From Acidobacteriota bacterium (lineage in GTDB: Bacteria > Acidobacteriota > Terriglobia > Terriglobales > Acidobacteriaceae), in assembly GCA_021846985.1 (NCBI GenBank), contig JAJZVX010000004.1, forward strand, positions 1-64,000: a stretch of DNA of 64,000 bases, given 5' to 3'. Below are positions 485 through 9,385 of this stretch, piece after piece. The notes below the pieces were generated by a model. The model saw only the letters and a list, made by a program, of their open reading frames with translations. It did not search any database and was not told the origin of the DNA. Each line of letters starts with the position of its first letter. Position 1 is the first letter of the stretch. A program made the translations under genes and the position numbers.

Positions 485-3400
485 ATGTCGGATCGTTTCA
501 GTGGCGTGATGGATCGGCCAGTTGCGCGTTACGCAATGGCCCTCGCGGCCGTAGCCGCCTCGGTTCTGCTGTGCTACCTCCTTGTCCAGGGCCTCGGCAT
601 GGAGATGCCGGCATTCATCACCTTCTATCCGGCCATCATGCTTGTCGCCCTTCTGGCAGGCTTCTGGCCCGGCATCTTTGCCACAGCGCTCTCCGTGTTG
701 AGCTGGAACTACCTCTTCCTGGCCCCCATCGGCCATTCTGTTGCAGACAGAGCATCGGATATTGTTGCTCTGAGCCTCTTTTCCGCGATGGGCGTTTTCA
801 TCAGCCTGGTGGCTGAGCATTACCGCCGCAGCCTCCGCGCCATCGCGGACCTCCAAGCCGAACAGCTCCGCCGCGAGAGCGAAGACAAACTCCGCCAGGC
901 CTCGGAATATCGGCGCCTCGCTCTCGATGCCGCCAGCCTCGGCGCATGGGACCTGCAAATTGAAACAGGAGAAGTGTTTTGGGATGATAGCTGCCGCACC
1001 GGGTATGGCTTCCCCTCCGGCCACTCCGTCACCTATGAGGAGGCCATCGCCCGCATCCTCCCTGAAGACCGCCCAGGCGTCGACGAAGCTGTCAAACAGG
1101 CCGTCGCCGGCGTCCACGACGGCGCCTATCATCGCGAGTATCGCGTCGCCTGGCCCGATGGCTCCATCCACTGGATCGCCTCCCACGGTCGGGTTTACTT
1201 CGACGGCGAAGGAGATCGAAAGCGCCCTGTCCGCTTCCTCGGAGTCAATGCCGACATCACCGGGAACAAGCAGATGGAACAGCACCTCCGTCAGCTCAAT
1301 CGCATCTATAACGTCCTCAGTGACGTCAACCAGACCATCGTCCGCGAGAAGGACTCCGCGGCCATGCTGGAAGCCGCCTGCCGCATCGCCGTCGAAAAGG
1401 GACAATTTCGCATGGCCTGGATCGGGATGGTCAACCCCGATACGCAGGTTCTTGAGCCGGTCGCCTCCAGCGGCGTTGTCGAGGGCTATCTCGATCGCAT
1501 CAGGATCGACTTCGGCGAATCCGCGCCAGACGCCGGTCCCGCCGCCCGCTGTTTCTTCAGTGGCCGGCACGCCATCTGCAACGACATCGAACACGAGATC
1601 CGCCGCCCCTGGCTCCAGGACGCCCTGCGCCACGGCTATCGCTCCGAGGCCTCGTTTCCACTCCTGGACAATGGAACTGTCATAGGCATCTTCTCCCTCT
1701 ATGCCGGCGAGCGGGACTTTTTTGACGAAGACGAAGTCAAGCTCCTCGACGAGATGGCCATGGACATCTCCTTCGCCCTTCGCGTTAACCGCAACGAAGA
1801 GAAGCGCCGCAAGGCCGAACACCACGTCCAGCAGCTCAACCGCGTCTATGCCGTTCTCAGTGACGTCAACCAGACCATCGTCCGCGAGAAGGACTCCGCG
1901 GCCATGCTGGAAGCCGCCTGCCGCATTGCCGTCGAAAAGGGACAATTCCGCATGGCCTGGATTGGCATGATCAATCCCGATACCCATGCCGTCGAACCGG
2001 TCGCCTCCAGCGGCGACGTCCAGGATTATCTCGATCTGCTCGGGATGGACTTTCTCGCTCCCGGCGCTCCGGCGGGGCCGTTGTCGCAGTGCATCCACTC
2101 CGGAAAATATGCCATCTGCAACGACATTGAACACGATCCTCTCTATTCACACTGGCGCGAAAACGCCATGCGGCACGGCTTCCGCTCCTCCGCTGGCTTT
2201 CCCCTCATCGTCGATGGCGCAGTGGTCGGCGCCTTCAACTTCTACACCAGTGAACCGGAGTTTTTTGCCAGCGACGAGCTAGCCCTCCTCGACGAAATGG
2301 CCAAGGACATCTCCTTTGCCCTCGAAGTCAGTCGCCATGAAGCCGACCGTCACAAAAAAGAAGAAGAGCTGCGTTGGCGCACCGCCTTCTTCGAGGCTCA
2401 GATCGAGTCCTCCATCGACGGTGTACTGGTCGTCGACAGCCAGGGAAAGATCCTGCTCCAAAATCAGCGCATGAGAGACCTGTTGCATATTCCCGCCGAG
2501 ATCGCAGACGACCCCGACGATTCGCGGCAGTTGCAATATGTCCACGACCTCGTCAGGAACGCTGATCAATTTCAAGAGAAAATACAGTATCTCTACGCCC
2601 ATCCCGACCAGATCAGCCGCGATGAGATCGAACTCATCGATGGAACGATCCTGGACCGCTTCTCCGCCCCCGTCCGCAACAAGGCCGGCAACTACTACGG
2701 CCGCATCTGGACCTTCCGCGACATCACCCAGTCCCGCCAGATCGAGGAACAGTTCCGCCAGGCCCAGAAAATGGAGTCCATCGGCCAGCTCACCGGCGGC
2801 ATCGCCCATGACTTCAACAACCTCCTCACCATAATCCAGGGCTGTTCGGAGTTCCTCGCCGAGGAAACCAGAGACAATCCCCGCCTCGCCAAAATGGCCG
2901 GGATGATTCTCGACGCATCCCGGCGCGGCTCCGACCTCACCCATCGCATGTTGGCCTTTGCCCGCCGCCAGTCCCTGCAGCCCAGACCGGTCGACATGAA
3001 CCTGCTCATCTCCAATATGGAAAGTTTTCTGCGCCGAACCCTCAGCGCCGACATCGACCTTCAGGTCGTCCCCTCCAGCGAGGAGTGCAACACCCTCATC
3101 GACCCCACTCAGCTTGAAAGCGCCCTGCTCAACCTCTGCGTCAACGCGCGCGACGCCATGCCCGGCGGAGGTAAGCTCATCGTCGAGACCCGCATCGTCG
3201 ACCTCGACGATACCTATGCCGAGCAGTTCGCAGACGTTACCCCAGGCCGCTACATTCAGCTTGCCGTCTCTGACACCGGCACCGGCATCAGCCCGGAAAA
3301 CCTCGTCCGCGTCTTCGATCCCTTCTTCACCACCAAGGGCGCCGGAAAGGGCACCGGCCTCGGCCTCAGTATGGTCTACGGCTTCATCAAACAGTCTCAG

Positions 3401-3916
3401 GGACACATCCGCATCCACTCCGAGCCGGGACAGGGCACCTCCGTCAAGCTCTACCTGCCCATCGCCGATAAGGGCAGCGAACCCGCCCGCCCGGAGCCCA
3501 CGATCCTCACCGATCTCTCTGGCTCTGAGACCATTCTGCTCGTCGAGGACAATGATTCCGTTCGCGAGTACGCCATCTCCCTGCTCGCCGATCTCGGCTA
3601 CCGCATCCTCTCCGCCGCTAACGGCAGGGACGCATTGGAAATCATCAGAAGCCATGGTCGTGCCGATATCGATCTGCTGTTTACTGACGTGGTCATGCCC
3701 GGCATGAACGGTCGCGAATTGGCCATCGAGGCCTGTAAGCTGAACCCCAGGCTCAAGGTGCTCTACTGCTCCGGATATGCCGAACAGGCGATCCTTCATC
3801 AAGGGCTCCAGAACGAGGATGTGCGCTTGCTCAACAAACCCTATAGCCGCCTGGAAGTGGCAAGAAGCGTCCGTGCAATCCTTAATGAAAATCAGCCCAC
3901 GGCAGAAGGGGGATGA
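485..3916 (+). CDS. Hybrid sensor histidine kinase/response regulator (DUF4118-PAS-GAF-GAF-PAS-HisKA-HATPase-REC)
   Basis: This 1143-residue membrane sensor kinase begins with about four transmembrane helices (residues 15-120, DUF4118-like, as in KdpD-type sensors). A short coiled coil follows, then a PAS domain (about 130-260), two GAF domains (about 275-440 and 455-620) and a second PAS (about 630-755). The HisKA phospho-acceptor is H775 in GGIAHDFNN. The HATPase carries DTGTGI and GKGTGLGLS boxes, and a C-terminal receiver has D1068 in LLFTDVVMPGM. All catalytic motifs look intact, so autophosphorylation and relay to its own receiver are expected. The two GAF domains are partly identical at DNA level (see the repeat feature). 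The stop codon overlaps the start of the REC-EAL gene as ATGA, so the pair should be co-translated and the partner is the likely output. The signal sensed is unknown. Confidence 0.92.
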   Translation: MSDRFSGVMDRPVARYAMALAAVAASVLLCYLLVQGLGMEMPAFITFYPAIMLVALLAGFWPGIFATALSVLSWNYLFLAPIGHSVADRASDIVALSLFSAMGVFISLVAEHYRRSLRAIADLQAEQLRRESEDKLRQASEYRRLALDAASLGAWDLQIETGEVFWDDSCRTGYGFPSGHSVTYEEAIARILPEDRPGVDEAVKQAVAGVHDGAYHREYRVAWPDGSIHWIASHGRVYFDGEGDRKRPVRFLGVNADITGNKQMEQHLRQLNRIYNVLSDVNQTIVREKDSAAMLEAACRIAVEKGQFRMAWIGMVNPDTQVLEPVASSGVVEGYLDRIRIDFGESAPDAGPAARCFFSGRHAICNDIEHEIRRPWLQDALRHGYRSEASFPLLDNGTVIGIFSLYAGERDFFDEDEVKLLDEMAMDISFALRVNRNEEKRRKAEHHVQQLNRVYAVLSDVNQTIVREKDSAAMLEAACRIAVEKGQFRMAWIGMINPDTHAVEPVASSGDVQDYLDLLGMDFLAPGAPAGPLSQCIHSGKYAICNDIEHDPLYSHWRENAMRHGFRSSAGFPLIVDGAVVGAFNFYTSEPEFFASDELALLDEMAKDISFALEVSRHEADRHKKEEELRWRTAFFEAQIESSIDGVLVVDSQGKILLQNQRMRDLLHIPAEIADDPDDSRQLQYVHDLVRNADQFQEKIQYLYAHPDQISRDEIELIDGTILDRFSAPVRNKAGNYYGRIWTFRDITQSRQIEEQFRQAQKMESIGQLTGGIAHDFNNLLTIIQGCSEFLAEETRDNPRLAKMAGMILDASRRGSDLTHRMLAFARRQSLQPRPVDMNLLISNMESFLRRTLSADIDLQVVPSSEECNTLIDPTQLESALLNLCVNARDAMPGGGKLIVETRIVDLDDTYAEQFADVTPGRYIQLAVSDTGTGISPENLVRVFDPFFTTKGAGKGTGLGLSMVYGFIKQSQGHIRIHSEPGQGTSVKLYLPIADKGSEPARPEPTILTDLSGSETILLVEDNDSVREYAISLLADLGYRILSAANGRDALEIIRSHGRADIDLLFTDVVMPGMNGRELAIEACKLNPRLKVLYCSGYAEQAILHQGLQNEDVRLLNKPYSRLEVARSVRAILNENQPTAEGG
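1316..1946 (+). repeat. Intragenic 540-bp-period duplication encoding the two GAF domains
   Basis: Bases 1316-1386 recur exactly at 1856-1926, a run of 71 identical bases. Identity continues with a single mismatch to about 1406/1946. Shorter identical blocks recur at the same 540-bp (180-codon) offset, for example around 1459/1999 and 1570/2110. The remainder of each GAF domain has diverged. Confidence 0.9.
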
Positions 3917-5157
3917 GACTTATGCCAGAAAAACGCATTCTCATCTTCGACGATGACGAGGCCGTCGCCCAAACCATCCAGTGGATCGCCGAGAGCCTCG
4001 GCTATCAGGCGGAGTTCACCACCTGCGCCGCCGATTTCTTCGCCTGCCATGACCGCTCCTGCCCGGATGTCATCACCCTCGATCTGGCCATGCCCGGCCT
4101 CGACGGCGTCGAGGTTATACGCCGCCTCGCCGAACGCAAATGCCGCGCCCGCATCGTCATCTCCAGCGGCATGGGCACCCGCATCCTCGAAGCCGCCCAG
4201 CGCTCCGCCGCCGAGCACGGCCTCAACATCGCGGGCGTCCTGCCCAAGCCCATCTCCCGTGAGGCCTTCAGCTTTCTGCTCGGCAAAGACGACGATCCCG
4301 CACCCTCCCCATCCGCCCAGGAGCCCTGCGCCGGCTGCGCGGCCCCGGTAGCCGCGGCGACCACCGTCAGCCCCGGTGTCTTCCGTCCCGCGCCCTCCGG
4401 CCTCGAAGCCGCCATCGAGCACCGCGAGTTCGTCATGGCATACCAGCCCAAAATCCATTGCAAATCCGGCGCGATCGCCGGCTTCGAGGCCCTCGTCCGG
4501 TGGCAGCATCCCGGCTACGGCCTCATCATGCCCGACAGCTTCATCCCCCTCGCCGAGCAGACCGGACTCATCGCCCCCCTCACCACCCAAATCGTCGAAC
4601 AGAGCCTCGCCTGGTTCTCCGCCGCCTTCCCGCAGTCAGGCCTTATGCTCTCCCTCAACCTCTCCGCGTGCAGCCTCGGCGACCTCCAGTTCGCTGACAG
4701 ACTCTCCGCCCTCTGCCGCCGCTTCCAGCTCCCCACCGAGCGCATCATCCTCGAGGTCACCGAATCCAGCGCCATGGTCGACCCCGTCCTCTCCCTCGAC
4801 CTGCTCACCCGCCTTCGCGTCAAGGGCTTCCACGTTTCCATCGATGACTTCGGCACCGGCTTTTCCTCCATGGTCCAGCTCGTCCGCCTGCCCTTCTCTG
4901 AAATCAAAATCGACAAATCCTTCGTCCTCCACGCCAGCCAGTCCCAGGAGTCCCGCACCGTCATCAAGTCCATCGTCGAGCTAGGCCACAGCCTCGGCCT
5001 CACCGTCGCAGCCGAGGGCGTCGAAACCCCCGAGGCCCACGGTTACATCAACACCATCGGGTGCGATCTCGCCCAGGGCTACCTCATCGCCCGCCCCATG
5101 CCCCCCGTTGCCGCCCAATCCTGGGCCGCCCGCCACCTTTCCCCGCCCACCCCCTGA
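3913..5157 (+). CDS. REC-EAL response regulator, c-di-GMP phosphodiesterase
   Basis: The 414-residue protein has an N-terminal receiver (acidic patch D13-D15, phospho-acceptor D57 in TLDLAMPGLDG), a Pro/Ala-rich linker near 135-155, and a C-terminal EAL domain. The EAL motif is at 192-194 (GFEALVRW). The other metal and catalytic signatures, SLNLS, EVTES, DDFGTG, IDKSF and AEGVE, are all present, so active hydrolysis of c-di-GMP to pGpG is expected. There is no DNA-binding domain. The start ATG at 3913 overlaps the upstream kinase stop; an alternative ATG lies 9 bases later. The overlap makes the kinase the obvious phosphodonor. The protein resembles a compact RpfG/PvrR-like cytoplasmic output module. 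Confidence 0.92.
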   Translation: MRLMPEKRILIFDDDEAVAQTIQWIAESLGYQAEFTTCAADFFACHDRSCPDVITLDLAMPGLDGVEVIRRLAERKCRARIVISSGMGTRILEAAQRSAAEHGLNIAGVLPKPISREAFSFLLGKDDDPAPSPSAQEPCAGCAAPVAAATTVSPGVFRPAPSGLEAAIEHREFVMAYQPKIHCKSGAIAGFEALVRWQHPGYGLIMPDSFIPLAEQTGLIAPLTTQIVEQSLAWFSAAFPQSGLMLSLNLSACSLGDLQFADRLSALCRRFQLPTERIILEVTESSAMVDPVLSLDLLTRLRVKGFHVSIDDFGTGFSSMVQLVRLPFSEIKIDKSFVLHASQSQESRTVIKSIVELGHSLGLTVAAEGVETPEAHGYINTIGCDLAQGYLIARPMPPVAAQSWAARHLSPPTP

Positions 5158-5251: not shown

Positions 5252-6301
5252 TCAGATCGTCGCCAAAGCCTGCCTCAGGTCAAGGATCGTTTCAGCCGGG
5301 CCGTTTTCCTCGACAAACCGGGGCGACAGCCCGTACGCAGCCCCGCCCAGTATGATTCTCGGCGTCCGCTCGCCCAGCCTCCCCCGGATACTCCGGATCA
5401 ACTCCGCGGCGGCTGGCAGGTTGGAGACTAGTGTCGTCGAGATGCACAGCGTATCCGGAGAAAACTCTTCAACGGTTTCCAGAACCGATCTTTCAGGCAG
5501 ATTGCTGCCGAGGAACCGCACATCCCACCCAGCCGCCTCCATGGCATCCGCTACCATGTTGGAGCCAATCTGGTGCAGTTCGCCGCAAACGCCGGTGACC
5601 ACCATCTTCCCCCGCATGGGAGTCGGGGGAATCATGCGCGGGTAAATCATGGCCACTACATACTGCGCGATCGCGGTCGCCATGTGTTCCTCCGCGACAC
5701 TGATCTTGTTTTGCTCCCAAAGGGAGCCCATCCTGTGTAGCGCCTCCGTGATGACATCGACATAAATATCCACATGCCGGGCGCCGTTTCGAAGCGCCTC
5801 TTCGACAATCGTCAGCGCGGCTTGACGCTGGCCGCCCAGAACCGCGCCGAGAAATGCGCGCATCGTCAGGCTGAGCCCTTCCTCTCCTGTTTCCTCGAGA
5901 CCAGATCCCTGGGCCCCGCATTCCTGTCGGCCCACGGACAGAAACTTCATGACCTCTTCCTGTTCTGAAGGCAAAAGCAGTCCGGCCATGTGCTTTCCTA
6001 ACTGGTCCAGGTTCTCCTCCACCGAGTGCGCATCGATGCCCCGTGCCCCAAGCATCCTCGCCGTCCACCGTGCGTAGTCCCCAAACGCTTCCGGAGAACC
6101 CGCTTGCAAAGCGCCGGCAAGAAACTCGATGTGATAGCACGCATCCGCCGTGCAGAACTGCCGCCCACGCGCGCCAAAGCGTGCCACCCACTCGGGATGG
6201 ATGCGGAAAAACTCCTCGGTCATGGCCTCGGCGGCGCTCTGTTTCACACGCAGCAGCTTTTGCACCAGCTCGAAACGGTTGTAATTCGATTCCCGTGTCA
6301 C
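5252..6301 (-). CDS. Cobalamin-binding sensor protein, CarH/LitR photoreceptor-like
   Basis: The 349-residue soluble protein has a helical N-terminal domain (1-125) that I do not recognise with certainty; it is faintly reminiscent of RsbR-type non-haem globin domains. A four-helix B12-cap domain follows (145-225), then a Rossmann-type B12-binding domain (230-349). The cap carries W195-x9-E205-H206, the W-x9-EH signature that places adenosylcobalamin in light-sensing CarH/LitR proteins. The Rossmann domain has E241-L-H243-Q-I-G246, where H243 would be the lower axial ligand; corrinoid methyltransferases normally show DxHxxG. No MerR DNA-binding domain is present, so output must be by protein contact. 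The gene starts 5 nt after the GGDEF gene and must share its transcript. A corrinoid-shuttle role is possible but less likely. Confidence 0.82.
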   Translation of the reverse strand: MTRESNYNRFELVQKLLRVKQSAAEAMTEEFFRIHPEWVARFGARGRQFCTADACYHIEFLAGALQAGSPEAFGDYARWTARMLGARGIDAHSVEENLDQLGKHMAGLLLPSEQEEVMKFLSVGRQECGAQGSGLEETGEEGLSLTMRAFLGAVLGGQRQAALTIVEEALRNGARHVDIYVDVITEALHRMGSLWEQNKISVAEEHMATAIAQYVVAMIYPRMIPPTPMRGKMVVTGVCGELHQIGSNMVADAMEAAGWDVRFLGSNLPERSVLETVEEFSPDTLCISTTLVSNLPAAAELIRSIRGRLGERTPRIILGGAAYGLSPRFVEENGPAETILDLRQALATI

Positions 6302-6306
6302 ACGCG

Positions 6307-7605
6307 TCAGGCTCCGATCGCACCCGCTGTCCGCGGGCCTTGCGCGATTTCAATCCTGTTTCTGCCCTTTTCCTTGGCGCGGTAAAGGGCTGCATCGGCC
6401 CGCGCCACCAGCTCTTCACCGGTCTCTCCCGGTCCGAAGCTCGCGATGCCCATGCTCACCGCGATCTGCCGTGGACATCCGGGCACCGTCAACTCTGCAA
6501 CTTTCTTCCGGATGCGCTTGGCAAGGGTGACTGCTCCTTTCACCGTCGTCCCCGGTAACAGCAGAACGAACTCGTCACCTCCGAATCGGGCCGCCAGCGC
6601 GTAAGCCCGCATCTGGCTTTTCACAACCGCTCCAAAGCCCTGCAGAACCTTGTCGCCGGTCTTATGCCCAAACTCGTCGTTGATCGATTTGAAACGATCG
6701 AGGTCGGCAAAGATTACGCTCAAGCTCTCTCTGAGACGTTCTGCGCGCGCCGTTTCTCGCGGAAGGGCTTCCTCCAGCATCCGGCGATTGGCCAGTCCGG
6801 TCAGCGCGTCGGTGCGCACCAGCGATTCGATGGTTTCGTTAGTCTTTTGCAACTGCCGGTTCACCCGTGAACTCTCGCGCAAGGCCGCCGAGAGTTCGTT
6901 GGTCAGCTTCAATATTTCCGTCTGAAAAACGGAATCGTGACGGCTTTCCTGGGTCCCCAGCAGAAGAAAGAATCCAGTGCACCGGATCAGTTGAACATCC
7001 CAGGTAACCGGGCTCCGCTCCCCATCGGCCAGATTCAGCAGAAAAGAGCCGTCCTCGGGTCTGTCCTTCGCCGCAAGCCGACAACGCAGGTTCTTGATGT
7101 CGGCGGAAATGAGATAGTGCCAAATTTCCGACGCCCCCTCACCGCCCGGTCCAGTTGGAAAGATGCGCTCTGCTGCGCGGTTTCGGGCGCGGATCGTCCC
7201 GTCCGGCTCCAATAGCAGCGCAAACACCGCTTCGGACCCTATCAGCCACTGTGAGAGCGCAGTCGCTTGCACTTCCAGTGCTTCGTTCAGATCCCGCCCA
7301 TTCTCCGGGCTCTTGAAGCTCTCTGCAACGGTGACTGATGTGAACGATGCATCCAGTTTCAATCCCTTCGGAATCAGCCGGTGCGACTCATGGTGAGCTT
7401 CGCTCCGATGCCACGCGCGAAATGATTCTGCGTCCGTCCATCGCGTCAACAGTAAAAATACCGAAGAGTCCTTGGCGTCCGTCAGAACGTCGAGGCCGCG
7501 GAAACCGGGCGTGCCTTCCACCAGTCGAGGACGGTCGAGGAACGCCCTGCGCACCTCTGCTTCCATCCCGTTGCGAACCCTAAATTGCGAGATTACGGTG
7601 ACCAC
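6307..7605 (-). CDS. Diguanylate cyclase with N-terminal ABM-like and PAS domains
   Basis: The 432-residue protein starts with an antibiotic-biosynthesis-monooxygenase/IsdG-like domain (1-90: an N-terminal strand, then LTRWTDAESFRAWHRSEAH). A PAS-like domain (about 115-225) and a coiled coil (228-265) connect it to a GGDEF domain. The active-site loop is GGDEF at 342-346, preceded by FADLDRFKSINDEFGHKTGD. Substrate and metal residues are therefore intact and c-di-GMP synthesis is expected. No RxxD inhibitory site precedes the loop. The start is a GTG with no clear Shine-Dalgarno. It is first in a two-gene operon with the cobalamin-binding protein. The ABM fold usually handles haem or quinones, so it may be a ligand sensor here; that is inference. 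Confidence 0.9.
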   Translation of the reverse strand: MVTVISQFRVRNGMEAEVRRAFLDRPRLVEGTPGFRGLDVLTDAKDSSVFLLLTRWTDAESFRAWHRSEAHHESHRLIPKGLKLDASFTSVTVAESFKSPENGRDLNEALEVQATALSQWLIGSEAVFALLLEPDGTIRARNRAAERIFPTGPGGEGASEIWHYLISADIKNLRCRLAAKDRPEDGSFLLNLADGERSPVTWDVQLIRCTGFFLLLGTQESRHDSVFQTEILKLTNELSAALRESSRVNRQLQKTNETIESLVRTDALTGLANRRMLEEALPRETARAERLRESLSVIFADLDRFKSINDEFGHKTGDKVLQGFGAVVKSQMRAYALAARFGGDEFVLLLPGTTVKGAVTLAKRIRKKVAELTVPGCPRQIAVSMGIASFGPGETGEELVARADAALYRAKEKGRNRIEIAQGPRTAGAIGA

Positions 7606-7889: not shown

Positions 7890-8441
7890 TCAGAATAGGA
7901 AGGGAATGAAGCGCCACGTCTGTCTCATGTAGGCCGAATATGATGGGCCAAAATGAACAATGTTCTCGCGCTCTTCGCGAATCGAGGTCGCAACAAGAAA
8001 CCCTGTTCCACACACTGCCAGTACGAGGCCTGCGGTTGCGGATGGCCTCTTTAGAAATGCGCACCAGATCAAAGCTAATAGCGAACTGTACAGTGGATGC
8101 CGAATGAACCGGTACGCACCAACGGTGACTAACTTCGTTGTCTTTTCGAAGCCTAAATCAGTAGTACTGCCCGCGACCGATGAGGGCCTGCCGATTACCC
8201 GGAGTAACCTGAATCCTTCAACTGCCAACGCGATCGAAGCTGCCCCGAATGACCACGACACAAGTTGAGGAACTGACAGAGGCTTAGTAAACCAAAACGG
8301 TGCATTTAGAAGAACCAGGGCGGTCAGTAGCTCAAATGCGAAAAATCGATAGAATCCGTGTGAGCGCGGATGCGCGAGCGATCGACGCGATAACCAAACA
8401 ATAGCTGCGGAAGTGGCAAGGAAAATGAGTACGCGCAACAT
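7890..8441 (-). CDS. Isoprenylcysteine carboxyl methyltransferase-family membrane protein
   Basis: This roughly 183-residue integral membrane protein (starting MLRVLIFLATSA) has about four hydrophobic helices. Its C-terminal block is typical of the ICMT/NnrU-like methyltransferase family: GAYRFIRHPLYSSLL, then EERENIVHFGPSYSAYM and a final RFIPFLF. The RHPxY and EE motifs form the SAM and cofactor site in this family. An upstream in-frame extension to 8600 exists but is polar and unlike the family, so the ATG at 8441 is preferred. Bacterial members methylate unknown small molecules or lipids, so the substrate is open. It is separated from the GGDEF operon by about 280 nt and seems independent. 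Confidence 0.75.
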   Translation of the reverse strand: MLRVLIFLATSAAIVWLSRRSLAHPRSHGFYRFFAFELLTALVLLNAPFWFTKPLSVPQLVSWSFGAASIALAVEGFRLLRVIGRPSSVAGSTTDLGFEKTTKLVTVGAYRFIRHPLYSSLLALIWCAFLKRPSATAGLVLAVCGTGFLVATSIREERENIVHFGPSYSAYMRQTWRFIPFLF

Positions 8442-9385
8442 TGGGGCGTCCCGCTTAGGTGGTGTTCTGGATTTTGTGTAAACGCCGTTCCTGCCTGTGA
8501 TCGTCCGGGCGGAATTTTCTTCCCTTCCTATGCCCCGGATAGTTGGATTATTTGGCCGGATGCGGCTGCCGTCAAGGGCGCGCGTTGTTTGCGCGTTCAT
8601 CGTAGCGCAGCGGAGACCCTTGACGGCAGCTGCAGCCAGCCGTATCGCAGAAGATCCGGGGCGTAGTAGGAATGGATGCTACTTTCCGGTCGCCGCCAGG
8701 ATGCGGTCTTCCCACAAGAGCGTGAAGCAGTTCAGCGCCGCCTTCCAGTGAATCTTCGGCGCTTTTGAGATTCTCGAAAGCGCCGAAGCGTTCAGTTTCC
8801 GATCGACGCGTGACTCGGCAATAATGCGCTCGCCGAAGCGGCATTGCAGCGTAGGCTCAAAGCCATCTTTCCCATTTACGTGAAGCGTCTCGATCGATGG
8901 TCGAGGCTACTTCATCACCATCCGTGCATCGATTCCGGCGCGAAGCAGGTTGGTTGTGTATGGGCGCGAAACTTGCGAAGAAACCAGCGCTCTGTCCTAG
9001 GTACTGACATCGAGAGCCGATTCCAGTAAAAAGGGATGACCTCTTCCCTTGACGAGAGCTTCAGGTTTGATGGTGATTCTTAGACCTCTTCCGTGTGGTC
9101 GTCATTCGAGTTCGCGGTAACTTGTTCAAATCAAGATAGTTGTGGGTGCGCTATATTCTCCGGAAGGTTCGGATTTCCCTTTCCAACTGGCTTGACCGGT
9201 CTGGGAACGAACCTGACCTATTGTTTTGTTCAACTTGCAGCGAAAAGACCTCCTCCGATGCGCTCTTTTTAGAGTTCGATTAGGGTGCTGAAGCCTCAAA
9301 ACCGGTGCTTTTGTGCGCTTTCTGAGCCATCAGTGCGCAATAGAATCAATGAGTTGTGGATTCGCCAAGATTTGACACGGAAACG

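Follow-up and report, generated by a model that had tools for sequence, protein, structure and literature searches.

The window analyzed here is a 64,000-nucleotide (nt) stretch of the genome of an Acidobacteriota bacterium (contig JAJZVX010000004.1, positions 1–64,000), in which two minus-strand genes encode a putative light sensor and a GGDEF-type diguanylate cyclase (DGC). The cyclase gene (6307–7605; 432 amino acids (aa), GTG start) specifies an ABM domain, a middle region that appears PAS-like, and a GGDEF domain, and it is followed in transcript order by the sensor gene (5252–6301; 349 aa, GTG start), which specifies an N-terminal photoglobin domain and a C-terminal B12-binding module. 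The coordinates of the open reading frames (ORFs) confirmed that the two genes lie 5 nt apart on one strand (6302–6306), as an earlier sequence-only reading of the locus had stated. That reading took the sensor for a B12 module of the CarH/LitR type with an unassigned N-terminus, controlling or reporting to a synthase of cyclic diguanosine monophosphate (c-di-GMP). By sequence comparison and structure prediction, the sensor is a photocobilin, i.e. a photoglobin-B12 protein, and not a bare CarH-like module. The structures of photocobilins were reported in 2024.

When the photocobilin protein was analyzed with Pfam, B12-binding_2 was found at residues 149–219 (E 1.1e-14) and B12-binding at residues 232–332 (7.2e-17). 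The former (5645–5857, minus strand, as all features of the two genes) corresponds to a four-helix-bundle cap over the adenosyl side of B12 and the latter (5306–5608) to a Rossmann-type B12-binding domain. The photoglobin domain comprises residues 6–134 (5900–6286) and contains C50-x-x-D53 and W79. A search of the PDB sequences with the full protein gave SasPcob (8j2w/8j2x) as the best match (E 1.3e-31), followed by CtMerR (8jbs, 1.5e-24) and AbPcob (8j2y, 3.1e-20), and, more weakly, by the predicted cobalamin-binding protein 1y80, methionine synthase, and CarH. A second stretch of the SasPcob alignment (E 1.5e-4) paired window residues 42–102 with SasPcob residues 253–313, which belong to the C-terminal bilin globin of that protein; thus, the domain order is reversed relative to SasPcob. 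A profile of 54 N-terminal domains retrieved SasPcob first (1.6e-9) and then dozens of phycobiliproteins. The Pfam family Phycobilisome (PF00502) matched 36 of the 54 relatives' N-terminal domains singly, the window copy not being among them. No MerR DNA-binding domain was detected by Pfam in the protein at E<=1, the N-terminus being a globin.

The structure of the photocobilin was predicted from a 77-sequence alignment (predicted local distance difference test score (pLDDT) 90.4, predicted template modelling score 0.85). Predicted residues 141–349 superposed on SasPcob (VIA-align Z 24.4, root-mean-square deviation (rmsd) 2.5, 204 residues aligned), and residues 6–134 superposed on smURFP (7uqa; Z 17.0, rmsd 2.0, 129 residues aligned) and also on allophycocyanins. 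For the predicted B12 part, the scores of the photocobilins (Z 22.5–24.4) were clear of all others. The N-terminal 125 residues, left without assignment in the sequence-only reading, can thus be assigned to a photoglobin domain by the SasPcob alignment, the profile search, and the predicted fold. A plain CarH-like sensor with a novel N-terminus was ruled out, as the profile and the predicted fold identify this part as photoglobin.

The light-responsive cobalamin-binding signature obtained with SignatureFinder consists of GxxW, EH, GxxH, and GxxxP (PMC11796333). All four elements are present in the window protein, with G192xxW195 and E205H206 in the cap and G240xxH243xxG246 and G265xxxP269 in the Rossmann-type domain; W195, E205/H206, and E241-x-H243-x-x-G246 were located exactly where they had been placed before. 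To assess conservation, 105 sequences including that of the window were compared; L081 and L082, in which no globin part was found, were left out of the residue counts and the tree. G192, W195, E205, H206, and G265 were invariant (105/105), H243 and P269 were each present in 104, and G240 in 83 sequences. Since the cap motif is near-invariant over these sequences, it is not due to chance. In the globin, W79 was conserved in 104/105 and D53 in 90/105 sequences, and the sequence alignment mapped the biliverdin (BV) contacts D270 and W296 of SasPcob to window D53 and W79 (the numbering of the SasPcob paper equals chain index + 6, anchored on W61/E71/H72). The attribution of CarH/LitR-like light-sensor marks therefore holds in so far as the full published signature is present and the best solved matches are light sensors; what has to be given up is the CarH-type protein, as this one is a globin-bearing photocobilin. 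C50, which falls in the chromophore-Cys column of phycocyanin, was considered as a phycobiliprotein-like novelty and rejected, as only 39 of the 105 sequences carry Cys there. A CXQD motif in photoglobins has already been reported (PMC10151467).

In the cyclase, Pfam identified a GGDEF domain at residues 265–417 (6355–6813; E 1.5e-45) and an ABM domain at residues 1–76 (7378–7605; E 1.1e-16), the latter having been missed in the sequence-only reading. The DGC active-site motif GGDEF is at 342–346 and DLDRFKSIND at 301; an RxxD inhibitory site is absent from what we take to be its usual place. The ABM domain is IsdG-like, with S6 replacing the catalytic Asn and with W56, W65, and H75 kept. Residues 96–258 (6832–7320) seem to comprise a PAS-like middle region and a signalling helix; the PAS likeness is our own reading, and a PAS domain was assigned by Pfam only to the related protein of L068. 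The mean pLDDT of the cyclase model was 58.5, and the model was good only over the ABM part (blocks of 79–95 across residues 1–80); therefore, the folds of the middle region and the GGDEF domain were not interpreted. The top matches in a fold search with the predicted ABM part were ABM proteins not described as heme enzymes. Since many such ABM proteins match by fold, fold alone does not favour heme.

Globin-B12 homologues were found in Planctomycetota, Verrucomicrobiota, Gemmatimonadota, Pseudomonadota, Chloroflexota, Bacteroidota, Bacillota, and archaea, among others (80 named loci), and also on plasmids of Azospirillum, Skermanella, and Ilyobacter. These named loci are the top 80 of a list of 261 ordered by similarity to a member with ABM, and a few of them come from the window's own phylum. 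Among 396 genomes of that phylum, at least 15 loci (L066–L080) were found in 14 other genomes, one of which (G412) has two, and a further match among those listed covers model positions 40–333 (G101); the matches of L080 and G361 begin only at position 57. The phylum searches scored the best first-look candidates per genome, at most 5 for the sensor, 12 for the ABM clade, and 9 for the transducer domain described below. A single-protein scan of genome contigs gave no match. L069 and L154 are identical in sequence, Azospirillum is over-represented, also between the plasmid and contig sets, and the family tree was obtained from a quick search.

Operon partners were sought among all ORFs on the sensor strand within 200 nt of the sensor gene, and the kinase, GGDEF, receiver, and ABM labels were given by hidden Markov models built on 2–5 seeds, not by Pfam. 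In the named loci, a histidine kinase lay downstream of the sensor in 61/80, an ABM gene upstream in 21/80, and both in 12/80; as the loci were ranked by likeness to an ABM-bearing member, 21/80 overstates the ABM share of the family. Archaeal globin-B12 genes are directly followed by histidine kinase genes in two Lokiarchaeota metagenome-assembled genomes (L147 and L153) and in Methanohalophilus (L158). On an Ilyobacter polytropus plasmid (L030:3833–5876), a fusobacterial globin-B12 gene overlaps a GGDEF gene by 20 nt; its product has Asn aligned with D53, and the Cys is missing. Some distant homologues have other neighbours: an amine-oxidase/desaturase-type gene (L078:5643–8105), an extracytoplasmic function (ECF) sigma and anti-sigma pair (L079:5933–8594), an ECF sigma gene with a 4-nt overlap plus an SDR/DUF2867 gene (L076:1444–4665), and, in L075, likewise an ECF sigma or anti-sigma gene. 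These ECF sigma/anti-sigma and amine-oxidase/desaturase settings recall light-induced carotenoid regulons.

The ABM clade occurred upstream of the sensor in 25 of 106 loci (named, plasmid, and phylum sets together) and at no other position, and by their labels the loci with this clade come from at least eight phyla. When the 396 phylum genomes were searched with the clade profile, only its five source loci were recovered (E 1e-44 to 1e-51), all of them beside globin-B12 genes, and the next matches were no better than 9.8e-12. The ABM domain forms the fused front end of the cyclase in the window and a lone protein in L067 (125 aa) and L070 (106 aa), and in L068, the nearest relative of the window, it is joined to PAS. 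That ABM-PAS protein (L068:4743–5741) ends in paired cysteines (ICMEC...CPQC) where GGDEF would be. We consider the ABM fusion a stronger link between cyclase and sensor than the short intergenic gap.

Against the PDB, the ABM profile matched 17 sequences at E<=1e-3, nearly all of them heme-degrading HmoB, IsdG, IsdI, and MhuD; the best match was TT1380, the function of which is not known, and 5uq4 and 1tz0 also bear other names. An Asn/Trp/His triad is the defining feature of the IsdG-type oxygenases (PMC5557675). In the linked clade, Ser stands for the catalytic Asn in 25 of 26 sequences, and the two Trp residues and the His are kept in all 26 (S6, W65, and H75 in the window). L068 has R at the Ser position, beside an S, in a doubtful start region. 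At the same columns, all eight next-best ABM matches outside the clade, so classed since none is among the loci beside globin-B12 genes, have Asn, Trp, Trp, and His. The support for monophyly of the clade was modest (0.695). Since Ser replaces the catalytic Asn, the clade was not filed as a plain IsdG oxygenase. We take the ABM domain to descend from an IsdG-type heme oxygenase and to act today as a tetrapyrrole-handling or docking partner. D53 was kept in 26/26 relatives with ABM and in 64 of the 75 without ABM that have a letter at this position, but this candidate difference was discarded (p 0.06, confounded by descent).

We also searched genomes for the heme oxygenase family PF01126. It was present in 3 of 24 genomes with ABM and in 10 of 50 without (Fisher p 0.53), the searches covering 20 of the 21 loci of one set and 40 of the 59 ABM-less loci of another. 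It was not found in 61 of 74 genomes with the sensor family (one probably counted twice, many unfinished, and other heme oxygenases not sought), nor in the three other phylum genomes with the ABM-sensor pair. Since PF01126 was also not found in most ABM-less genomes, its absence does not discriminate and was rejected as support for an ABM-made bilin.

The partner proteins downstream of the sensor (kinase, GGDEF, and orphan proteins, e.g. in L067, L066, L102, and L126) have in common an N-terminal region of about 165 residues, here called the transducer domain. In an all-against-all comparison of 81 such regions from kinase and GGDEF fronts and small orphan proteins, 78 were linked at E<=1e-4; the other three, which stayed unlinked, were the middle region of the window cyclase and the two small proteins that follow L110 and L118. 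At its end the region has a conserved helix (consensus ELSRLNNEL.N.QRELAKKN.E), and some of the linkage may be due to this helix. In the libraries searched, any one Pfam family matched at most 1 of 20 members, and neither an NCBIfam family nor, at E<=0.1, a PDB sequence was matched; a comparison with the photoglobin revealed no likeness. The domain was found in five of the 396 phylum genomes, where its neighbour was always a globin-B12 gene or, in the case of G120, a B12 gene; two of these five belong to the profile itself, and the G267 match covers the helix only. A single hhalign comparison of the window middle region with the transducer-domain alignment gave a probability of 76% (E 2.2e-5), and hmmsearch with the domain found no match in the window cyclase at E<0.1. 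We therefore treat the middle region as a possible equivalent of the transducer domain, i.e. as a lead. In Adhaeribacter, a lone transducer domain of 164–173 aa follows the sensor, with no kinase (L104:7048–7563, L112:7070–7591, and L114:7086–7580). In L082 (G120:C50), a B12-only protein adjoins a transducer-domain gene; it has possibly lost its bilin domain, or its start was mis-called.

In photocobilins, light cleaves off the adenosyl group of the cofactor, and excitation of BV does so too (PMC10979010). In AbDPcob, a photocobilin-DGC fusion, light raises kcat more than 10-fold, and isolated photocobilins act in trans on the isolated DGC, probably by contact (PMC10979010). The window pair resembles a naturally occurring form of this control in trans, and we consider it likely that the photocobilin regulates the ABM-PAS-GGDEF cyclase in trans as a light-responsive switch. 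The observed basis for this is formed by the genes, the domains, the signature residues, the predicted folds (for the cyclase, of the ABM part only), and the recurrent operon partners. Adenosylcobalamin (AdoCbl) would be bound by the sensor beneath the W195/E205/H206 cap, H243 serving as the lower ligand, and the N-terminal globin would hold a bilin at D53/W79. Green light would then cleave the Co–C bond directly and red light through the bilin; red as well as green light may act because the N-terminus of the sensor is a globin with a bilin pocket. Through contact with the front end of the cyclase, which comprises the ABM domain and the PAS-like region, the rearranged sensor would alter c-di-GMP synthesis, where activation by light is a guess from the analogy with AbDPcob. 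What survives of the proposal that a B12 module gates a c-di-GMP synthase is the link between B12 photoreceptor and cyclase, for which there is direct published precedent; the CarH-type module has given way to a photocobilin.

Several results weigh against light control of the cyclase by the photocobilin. The sequence-only reading had named conservation of the GGDEF/B12 pair as a test, and this test largely failed: a GGDEF gene lay within 200 nt downstream in 2/80 named loci, in 1/9 plasmid loci (Ilyobacter), and in none of the 15 phylum loci (of 17) used for the count, and conservation of the pair as such was rejected. A full-length homologue was found in 0/35 genomes of the same genus, some of them incomplete, where no match at E<=1e-10 starts before residue 107; the sensor family is thus wide, yet of sporadic occurrence in the genus of the window. 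A search of the source genome for the heme oxygenase family PF01126 gave no match. In the predicted B12 part, methionine synthase (Z 20.7) and the methylamine corrinoid protein (20.6) tie with CtMerR (20.4–20.6) and exceed CarH (18.1), and therefore fold alone cannot separate a light sensor from a corrinoid protein. The top NCBIfam family for this part was also a corrinoid protein (1.9e-16, versus 7.9e-14 for CarH), all far below the cut-offs. SasPcob without BV acts on the cyclase in the opposite sense, so that the sign is BV-dependent, and AbPcob is an example of a photoglobin with poor BV binding (PMC10979010). Points in favour are the globin-B12 genes directly followed by a GGDEF gene in Ilyobacter, L138, and L175, and a PduO-type adenosyltransferase encoded in the source genome.

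On the other side of the sensor gene, a plus-strand gene for a hybrid histidine kinase (485–3916; DUF4118, PAS, two GAF, HisKA, and receiver) overlaps a plus-strand gene for a receiver-EAL phosphodiesterase (3913–5157), which is convergent with the sensor gene and ends 94 nt from its end. A c-di-GMP-degrading system thus faces the c-di-GMP-making pair. The next same-strand gene upstream of the cyclase (7890–8600, minus strand) lies 284 nt off and gave a weak match to ICMT/PEMT methyltransferases (E 7.7e-6).

The B12 protein might instead function as a corrinoid shuttle or as the partner of a methyltransferase and be located beside the cyclase by chance. The top NCBIfam score, the fold matches of corrinoid proteins and methionine synthase with Z >20, and the weak methyltransferase match of 7890–8600 agree with this. 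However, all corrinoid families stayed far below their curated cut-offs (at best 60.1 bits for the MtaC/MtbC/PylC-type shuttle class, versus 215.3), the cap motif and the globin are photocobilin-like, and neither the kinase gene nor the EAL gene on the far side of the sensor encodes a methyltransferase, making such a role highly improbable. ICMT and PEMT are membrane enzymes that use S-adenosylmethionine, not corrinoid. It is also possible to envisage a sensor that reports the level of AdoCbl, not light, to the cyclase, as the same pocket would respond to AdoCbl occupancy, and in AbDPcob the DGC activity falls upon AdoCbl binding alone (PMC10979010). We regard this as unlikely, because the protein retains every element of the light signature and also the bilin globin. 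A further argument is that the homologues L078, L076, L079, and L075 stand in settings that we associate with light-induced carotenoid genes. That the sensor acts on some other cellular output and is merely co-expressed with the cyclase would be in line with the 61 of 80 named relatives paired with histidine kinases, but the cyclase carries an ABM domain that elsewhere is a separate gene beside the sensor, and we find this explanation quite unlikely.

It is rather doubtful that the ABM domain is an active heme-degrading enzyme making the bilin of the globin, so that chromophore synthesis and c-di-GMP output would reside in one polypeptide. The heme-degrading enzymes among its PDB matches, the invariance of W65 and H75, the restriction of the clade to sites beside globin-B12 genes, and the failure to find PF01126 in the four phylum genomes with the pair speak for such an activity, whereas the Ser in place of the triad Asn, the top fold matches not described as heme enzymes, and a PF01126 frequency not significantly lower with ABM than without speak against it. 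Light control of the cyclase in trans by the photocobilin thus remains our preferred explanation. More broadly, and tentatively, the locus might be one form of a phylum-spanning photosensory unit consisting of ABM, photocobilin, and transducer-headed output, in which the ABM domain, an Asn-to-Ser heme oxygenase repurposed as a tetrapyrrole partner, makes, hands over, or reads a bilin or heme and is here fused to the cyclase; although possible, this view has a less than even chance of being correct.

The photocobilin family, its globin-then-B12 order, and light control of GGDEF are already known, and photocobilins have been grouped by N- or C-terminal B12 domain (PMC10979010). As far as we have seen, the ABM clade as a linked partner, the ABM-cyclase fusion, and the transducer domain are apparently new. 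Our literature search found no paper linking ABM with B12/globin photoreceptors, but it did not cover the original photoglobin description (Schneider et al. 2022), which may mention such a link; the ABM partner ('monooxygenase') is absent from the main texts of PMC10979010 and PMC10151467. The locus offers a testable answer to how standalone photocobilins signal, namely through a cognate cyclase in the same operon, and the ABM partner, presumably derived from a heme oxygenase, is a candidate for the bilin source of photocobilins. If our explanation is true, the locus provides a two-part green/red-light switch for c-di-GMP, and, if the broader view also holds, the ABM-cyclase fusion unites chromophore handling and c-di-GMP output in one molecule.

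With the IsdG-type oxygenases (IsdG, IsdI, MhuD, HmoB, and LFO1), the window ABM shares its fold and the Trp-x8-Trp-x9-His spacing, which W91, W100, and H110 of LFO1 match (PMC5557675), but it has Ser where those enzymes have the catalytic Asn. CarH/LitR (TtCarH, 5C8A-F) and CtMerR (8JBS) share with the window sensor the residues of the AdoCbl cap and the B12 fold (Z 18.1 and 20.4), whereas the sensor has a globin in place of the MerR DNA-binding domain of CarH/LitR. SasPcob of Saccharothrix syringae (8J2W/8J2X) is closer, since it also combines a W/EH/ExH-capped B12 module with a globin having Asp and Trp bilin contacts and is a standalone sensor able to act on a cyclase in trans (PMC10979010). 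It differs from the window protein in its order (B12 before globin, instead of globin before B12) and in having Thr at the position of C50 in the sequence alignment, and no operon cyclase is reported for it in the available text of PMC10979010. AbDPcob, the Acidimicrobiaceae photocobilin-GGDEF fusion (8J2Y), resembles the window in pairing a photocobilin with a GGDEF cyclase (PMC10979010). It is, however, a single polypeptide with His for the BV-contact Asp and with no ABM domain in its description in the same available text, whereas the window has two genes, keeps the Asp, and carries the ABM domain on the cyclase.

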